DNA of 64,000 nucleotides, from contig VBPL01000035.1 in assembly GCA_005877205.1 (NCBI GenBank), positions 1 through 64,000 on the forward strand, written 5' to 3'. The position numbers were made by a program, and so were the translations under genes. The stretch's first letter is position 1. Each line of letters starts with the position of its first letter. This DNA comes from Nitrososphaerota archaeon (GTDB lineage Archaea > Thermoproteota > Nitrososphaeria > Nitrososphaerales > Nitrosopumilaceae). The notes below the pieces were generated by a model. The model worked only from the letters and a program-made list of their open reading frames with translations. It was not told the DNA's origin and did not search any database. Shown piece by piece: positions 23,922-25,298 of the stretch.

Positions 23922-25298
23922 CTAGTATAGGAAGCTCATTAATTTTATTTGTTGCTCAGTGGTGATTATGTTTTTTGATGCAAGCATTTCTAGGAGTTGC
24001 GTTATCAGCGCTCTTTCCTGTTCTGAAAATCCGGTAGGTCCTTTGTCTCCAGGTGGACCTGGTGGACCTCGTGGACCTTGTGCACCTACTTGACCCTGTG
24101 GGCCTTGTGGACCTTTGTCGCCTGGTGAACCTTGTGGACCAGTTATTCCTTTGTCACCTTGTGGACCTTGAACTCCTTGTGGACCTTTGTCGCCTGGTGA
24201 ACCTTGTGGGCCAGTTAATCCTTTTTCTCCTTGTGGACCTTGGATTCCTTGTGGACCTGAAGCACCTTGTGGGCCGGGGACACCTCGAGGGCCTTGATCA
24301 CCTAGAGGACCTGGCAGTCCTTTTGGACCTTTTTCACCTTGAGGACCTGGAATTCCTGTAAGACCTTTTTCACCTGGCTGGCCTTGCGGACCTTGGGGGC
24401 CTTTGTCACCCAGTGGACCTTGCGGACCAGTTAATCCTTTTTCACCTGGCTGGCCTTGCGGACCTTGCGGGCCTTTGTCACCCAGTGGACCTTGCGGACC
24501 AGTTAATCCTTTTTCACCTGATGCACCTGGCTGCCCAGTAGGTCCTTTGTCACCAGACGGACCACGATCTCCTGTTATTCCTTTGTCTCCTTTGTCACCC
24601 TTGTCTCCTTTGTCACCCTTGTCACCGGTTAGACCCTTGTCACCGCGAGGTCCTTTATCTCCTGAAGGGCCTTTGTCACCTGTTATCCCTTTGTCACCCA
24701 TTGGGCCTTTGTCACCCTTATCTCCCTTGTCACCTGGTGGACCTTGTGGACCTTTGTCACCTAGAAGACCTTGTGGACCGGGAGGACCTTTGTCACCGGG
24801 TGGACCTGGATGACCTTTGTCACCTGGTTGACCTTGTTGTCCCGGTGAACCCATATGACCTGGAGGACCTATAGGACCAGAAGGTCCACGTTGCCCTCCT
24901 TCACCGGCATATTCCGGAGATGGTTTTGAAGTACGTAGACTAGGTTCTTCTCGTTCTGGTGTGGGAGATTCGGTAGATTCTATTGAAATTCTTGGAACTT
25001 CAATTTGAAAAGTAGTGTGAATGGAAGAGAATTGATCGACTACTACAATCCATGCTGTATCTCTTTGAAAAACCGAATCAGGCAAGGGGTTTCTTGACGA
25101 ACCCAAGGTTTGAGTAAACTTTTTGTCTTTTACTCTAAGATGAAAATTGTCTTTCCACAGTGACACAAAATCTTTTCGCTTAATTTCGTCTTGCGTGGGT
25201 TGATTGTCACAAATTGCAATTTGTACTTCAAAGACGCCCGACGAGAGCTTAAATGGCGATTCTCCAGTTAGCTCGATAGTCCTCTCTTTGGCTGACAT
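23922..25298 (-). CDS. Collagen-like (Gly-X-Y repeat) protein without signal peptide
   Basis: 458 residues in three parts. Residues 1-133 are a globular domain ([16 protein letters not shown] ... [12 protein letters not shown]) of unknown family, ending in a Ser/Pro/Glu-rich linker. Residues ~135-422 are about 95 uninterrupted Gly-X-Y triplets rich in GDKG, GPQG, GEKG and GPPG. The final ~35 residues ([20 protein letters not shown]) look like an amphipathic trimerisation helix. No signal peptide or membrane segment is visible, so the protein seems cytoplasmic, unlike most prokaryotic collagen-like proteins. Charged GDK/GEK triplets replace hydroxyproline as stabilisers in known bacterial collagens. 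A small gene follows 37 bp downstream. Confidence 0.85.
24360..24520. repeat. Tandem ~72-bp repeats inside the collagen-like gene
   Basis: Two nearly identical consecutive units encode [20 protein letters not shown] followed by QGQP. Related shorter units lie on both sides, so the triplet region has grown by unit duplication and is prone to length change. Confidence 0.8.

Follow-up and report, generated by a model that had tools for sequence, protein, structure and literature searches.

A collagen-like protein without a visible export signal is a conserved core protein of the archaeal family Nitrosopumilaceae

The window, the whole 64,000-nucleotide stretch of DNA that was analysed (contig VBPL01000035.1 of assembly GCA_005877205.1), contains on its reverse strand a gene for a collagen-like protein of 458 aa. 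An earlier note, made from the sequence alone, had taken this DNA to be archaeal and the protein to be collagen-like with head and tail domains of its own. Both claims were borne out: the genome is Nitrosotalea-like, with close relatives in Candidatus Nitrosotalea (including N. devanaterra, which carries an ortholog, and N. bavarica), and the protein has a Pfam Collagen match and an architecture repeated in its orthologs. The features of the locus, in window coordinates, are as follows.

23600 to 23884, reverse strand: gene for a 94-aa protein, 37 bp from the collagen gene; by its distribution an older downstream neighbour and not a dedicated partner
23922 to 25298, reverse strand: gene for the 458-aa collagen-like protein (head, linker, rod, tail); open reading frame with ATG start, Pfam Collagen match, orthologs with identical order
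23925 to 24032, reverse strand: tail, residues 423–458, a helix-turn-helix hairpin predicted by AlphaFold2 and a putative trimerisation module
24033 to 24896, reverse strand: rod, residues 135–422, 96 uninterrupted Gly-X-Y triplets, from sequence and ortholog comparison
24051 to 24077, reverse strand: proline-rich GPRGPPGPP triplets, residues 408–416, adjoining the tail; invariant in alignment A5 and kept across genera, with a putative role in folding
24897 to 24986, reverse strand: variable linker, residues 105–134, poorly conserved among orthologs
24987 to 25298, reverse strand: head domain, residues 1–104, an Ig-like beta-sandwich predicted by AlphaFold2, conserved family-wide
25319 to 25332, reverse strand: conserved cis-element AAATACAAAAATAC, 20 nt before the ATG, at the same place family-wide
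25340 to 25347, reverse strand: TATA-like TTTATATC upstream of the collagen gene, kept in Nitrosotalea-like relatives, a candidate promoter element
25382 to 26572, forward strand: divergent TPR-protein gene (Pfam TPR repeats, synteny), the other flank of the proposed insertion site

Collagen (PF01391) was the sole Pfam match of the protein (3.2e-49; 165 bits, cut-off 27.2), and the plus-strand ORFs listed over the gene are shadow frames. About 95 perfect Gly-X-Y triplets had been claimed and 96 were found, or 98 if the edge triplets GEG and GFS are included; a run of this length cannot be due to chance and is kept in 25 orthologs. The tract includes imperfect tandem repeats of 36 and 72 bp, which suggests that the rod has probably grown through duplication. 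A head domain is present as the earlier note had proposed, but in place of its 133 residues there are approximately 104 conserved residues followed by a variable linker of approximately 30. The short C-terminal helix that it had described is indeed a helical tail, predicted as a hairpin and not as a single helix.

Conservation of the rod was examined in same-genus orthologs. Glycine was never replaced (0 of 2,793 triplets in 25 complete copies), while X and Y positions were approximately 80–89 % identical and the third bases of glycine codons merely 37–63 % identical; for the 101-triplet class the values were approximately 80 % for X and Y positions and 37 % for third bases. The zero count is not an artefact of picking the longest run because runs reach from linker to tail in every ortholog. 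Acidic residues in the window's rod are confined to X (29) and basic residues to Y (33), and an acid and a base occur within one triplet 28 times against 10.1 expected. Axial KGD/KGE pairs in the rod were not enriched and were slightly under expectation. The head is likewise constrained (dN/dS 0.04–0.13 in eight pairs). Invariant glycines despite diverged third bases, together with the placement of charges at X and Y, speak for a genuine triple helix, and the chain is presumed to be a trimer.

Rod length falls into tight classes of 98, 101–102 or 123–124 triplets among same-genus orthologs (L001–L028), and the 94-aa gene was undetected in those 101-triplet genomes of the genus that were checked. 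Complete copies from other genera have 68 to 185 uninterrupted triplets, giving a spread of approximately 2.7-fold over the family. Two blocks within the rod, one ending in [VI]PGPQG, are common to several genera, and the proline-rich block next to the tail is likewise kept.

A very unlikely alternative is that the rod never becomes triple-helical and stays unfolded, a hydrophilic spacer that separates head from tail. Such a reading would be in keeping with the search for an enzyme that forms hydroxyproline, in which no PF13640 prolyl hydroxylase was found in the window's own genome. However, a spacer would need no glycine at every third residue, yet none is replaced, and the charge rules at X and Y agree with those of true collagens. 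Glycine conservation thus argues against an unfolded monomer.

Single-chain structure predictions were obtained for head and tail. The head, modelled by AlphaFold2 from 34 sequences, was chiefly beta strands (mean pLDDT 86.6, pTM 0.77). Foldseek returned weak and mostly Ig-like matches, with a best PDB E-value of 0.07 and a best BFVD E-value of 0.0015 (TM-score 0.35); these matches included the surface adhesin SgrA, which was not significant. No match to the head was found in Pfam, NCBIfam, PHROG or PDB sequences. Two weak C2-domain hits, with E-values of 0.83 and 0.95, fell on one W-x-x-x-F motif; they were not significant, and a C2 assignment was rejected. The N-terminal beta-sandwich of bacterial tail fibres, for which we take the consensus to be YQGRL...LGS...PLP, was also considered. 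This consensus ranked second among 1,000 shuffles, but a real Flammeovirga sequence ranked only about 50th; the hhalign probability was 7 %. Homology of the head to this sandwich gains no clear support from the comparisons. For the tail, the prediction was a hairpin of helices (block pLDDT 92–97). Its Pfam and PHROG matches were no better than chance and it was not assigned to any domain known there. It adjoins the rod where this is rich in proline, as would suit a module for nucleation and trimerisation at the C terminus, and such a role is proposed here.

The earlier note had seen no export signal, a claim that was upheld. An in-frame stop lies directly before the start of the gene (TAG-GAT-ATG), and one codon separates stop and ATG in all 13 of the 13 Nitrosotalea-like relatives checked, the value of 2 for L065 being counted from its second codon. 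In most genera a AAATACARAAATAC element is found 20–21 nt ahead of the start codon, whether ATG, GTG or TTG. Within the window's 1.56-Mb genome there is a single exact copy of the 14-mer, the one preceding the collagen gene, and a GC-rich genome (L083) retains the element with a single mismatch. By its position it may be a promoter-proximal element or, if the transcript is leaderless, the TATA box. Its conservation is unusually strict for a TATA box. A missed upstream signal peptide is ruled out by the in-frame stop and by the cis-element, which fixes the start. Among the orthologs compared there was no long hydrophobic stretch at the N terminus and no transmembrane segment, and no export signal was visible in any of them.

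Other collagen-like proteins of the family (L109 and L110) also carry Gly-X-Y tracts but have clear signal peptides at the N terminus, contain other domains and differ in triplet composition. The frame in L110 (202–7755, reverse strand) is open for 2,518 aa and encodes a signal peptide as well as 559 Gly-X-Y triplets without interruption. Within the window, an HtrA/DegP-like protease (43333–44451, forward strand; Trypsin_2 and PDZ) has a short collagen-like stalk; its frame extends upstream through a hydrophobic anchor, with no in-frame ATG, GTG or TTG before the anchor. A 252-bp tandem repeat in four copies at 61929–62927 lies probably inside a large surface protein. The signal peptides of L109 and L110 and the anchor of the HtrA-like protease indicate that this lineage exports collagens via ordinary signals, and the head-rod-tail protein has none.

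Proteins lacking a signal can still get to the surface, and the main rival to a cytoplasmic location is that the trimeric collagen rod is exported, with no recognisable Sec or Tat signal, and serves at the surface as an adhesin or as a spacer of the S-layer. Among prokaryotic collagens, the majority of those known have extracellular roles, and SgrA among the non-significant Ig-like matches is a surface adhesin. In addition, a 2026 study of Ca. N. chungbukensis describes 'LPXTG-anchored collagen-like adhesins' as highly expressed at low salinity, with one in the proteome (PMC13037477); a possible relative under this label thus rises when salinity is low. Against a surface route, no ortholog has a signal peptide or transmembrane segment, and the family's other collagens leave by ordinary signals. 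This possibility is considered unlikely, although it is the strongest of the alternatives.

To establish how widely the protein is distributed, the head profile was searched against 400 genomes of the class. It matched 187, all within Nitrosopumilaceae (GTDB usage) and spanning 22 genera, nearly always once per genome; every one of the 24 single-contig family genomes listed had exactly one match. Where a listed family genome had no match, its assembly was in several contigs, and some absences are probably artefacts because repeats break assemblies. When the whole phylum was searched with a tail profile and with a head profile of greater diversity, full matches were confined to Nitrosopumilaceae. 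Outside the family the tail profile had three weak matches, covering the first 24–35 of its 60 positions (the collagen part), and the full-length tail was restricted to Nitrosopumilaceae in this search. Representative orthologs from other genera have the identical head-rod-tail order. In Nitrosopumilaceae the collagen-like gene belongs to the core genome, as one copy in a syntenic position.

Two lineages carry broken or degenerate copies. In the single-contig genome G151 (L103, 6889–8546) a frameshift and a stop interrupt the collagen frame and the tail can still be recognised; this break may reflect a sequencing error. In the 0.8-Mb genome G168 (L104, 7156–8334) the rod is short and interrupted and the tail has diverged. 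If these are not sequencing errors, they are natural tests of whether the protein is dispensable.

The order of genes at the locus is kept over much of the family: sulfite/nitrite reductase-like, rhodanese-like, TPR (divergent), collagen, 94-aa and OBG/DRG-type GTPase. The TPR gene was identified by Pfam, and the reductase-like, rhodanese-like and GTPase genes are what we take them to be from sequence and general knowledge. No known structured RNA was found at the locus. A small Lys/Arg-rich protein of 39 residues, MAMKRRSKKAPKRRSPRRRSAPKKAKRSARRKATKRRRR, is encoded between the GTPase and 94-aa genes (23428–23547, forward strand) and has no Pfam match. In six genomes from other families the TPR and 94-aa genes are direct divergent neighbours, with approximately 115–460 nt between alignment edges, and this gap contained no head and no Gly-X-Y coding in any of the six. 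Because these outgroups join both genes without the collagen gene, the simplest reading is that the gene entered at this site on the stem of Nitrosopumilaceae.

It follows from its presence beside TPR in collagen-less outgroups that the 94-aa gene is the older of the two. The earlier note had proposed it as a cotranscribed partner, and the collagen-like and 94-aa proteins could in principle form a dedicated two-gene system, since the genes share a strand, lie 37 bp apart and are neighbours in many relatives. However, the 94-aa gene sits directly beside TPR in families without a collagen gene, and in many family genomes that retain the collagen gene it was not detected. By this distribution the proposed partnership appears largely refuted, and we regard it as the least probable of the alternatives, with hardly any likelihood left to it.

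The insertion of a gene between two older ones is also compatible with a viral or prophage structural protein domesticated on the family stem, and in tailed-phage fibres the collagen rods are cytoplasmic products that carry no signal (PMC3368898). Yet no relative of the head was found in viral contigs (one scan, with a closer head alignment) or in phage genomes, no PHROG match was obtained, no phage genes are adjacent and synteny is strict. A viral origin is improbable.

The nearest experimentally studied parallel is EPclA of an E. coli O157:H7 prophage, a trimeric dumbbell with a collagen transition at 42 °C and no hydroxylation (PMC3368898). In both proteins a Gly-X-Y rod links an N-terminal to a C-terminal globular domain and has acidic residues at X and basic ones at Y; like EPclA, the archaeal protein is presumably made without hydroxyproline, and the C-terminal trimerisation domain of EPclA has a proposed counterpart in the archaeal tail. 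In contrast, EPclA is phage-encoded and has PfN, PfC and PCoil domains, whereas the archaeal protein, encoded by a chromosomal core gene, lacks them; no phage-fibre N or C domains were found in it by Pfam, or by PHROG for head and tail. Scl1 and Scl2 of Streptococcus (NF038330 and NF038329) share a long charged Gly-X-Y tract, on which the best NCBIfam match of the archaeal protein rests (NF038330, Scl1/SclA, LPXTG-anchored adhesin; 238.7 bits against a curated cut-off of 400), but the archaeal protein has no signal peptide, no LPXTG and no hydrophobic segment. The rods of BclA-type spore collagens are assembled from the mother-cell cytoplasm, a shared trait, but end in a C1q-like domain, whereas the archaeal tail is a hairpin of 33–36 residues with no such Pfam match.

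The reading preferred here, to which about an even chance is given, is that the protein is a homotrimeric, non-secreted collagen-like rod and a core protein of Nitrosopumilaceae, presumably located in the cytoplasm with a scaffold role. Three chains would join via the C-terminal hairpin, and the proline-rich block beside it would start the triple helix, which would zip towards the N terminus. The helix would be held without hydroxyproline by proline and by charge pairs of acids in X with bases at Y. The product would be a thin, nearly neutral rod with three Ig-like heads at the far end, approximately 82 nm long here (96 triplets at 0.286 nm per residue) and approximately 60–160 nm across the family. 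In the cell it could serve as a trivalent spacer or tether that keeps head-bound partners apart. The architecture, its conservation, the constraint on glycine, the absence of a signal peptide and the gain at one site are observed. The fuller proposal, that an intracellular collagen triple helix without prolyl hydroxylation, arisen once between two older genes on the Nitrosopumilaceae stem, is a core scaffold of the whole family, is held more tentatively, at somewhat less than an even chance. The unenriched KGD/KGE pairs, the length spread and the two broken or degenerate copies count against the preferred reading.

No paper on the head-rod-tail collagen protein was found in a literature search. 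The adhesin of Ca. N. chungbukensis could be the head-rod-tail protein, misleadingly labelled, or else one of the other collagen-like proteins that some family genomes carry. The NF038330 match is a likely source of misleading annotation in the family, and an LPXTG adhesin label can mislead readings of transcriptomes and proteomes.

Nitrosopumilaceae are ammonia oxidisers and among the most abundant cells of the ocean and of many soils. A protein that is single-copy and family-wide, with glycines that never change, is presumably important to them. If cytoplasmic, it would break the rule that prokaryotic collagen is found outside cells or in virus or spore coats, and would be a source of a natural archaeal trimerisation tail and of a hydroxyproline-free rod. 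Collagen may thus operate inside archaeal cells, in a family that has cultured species.
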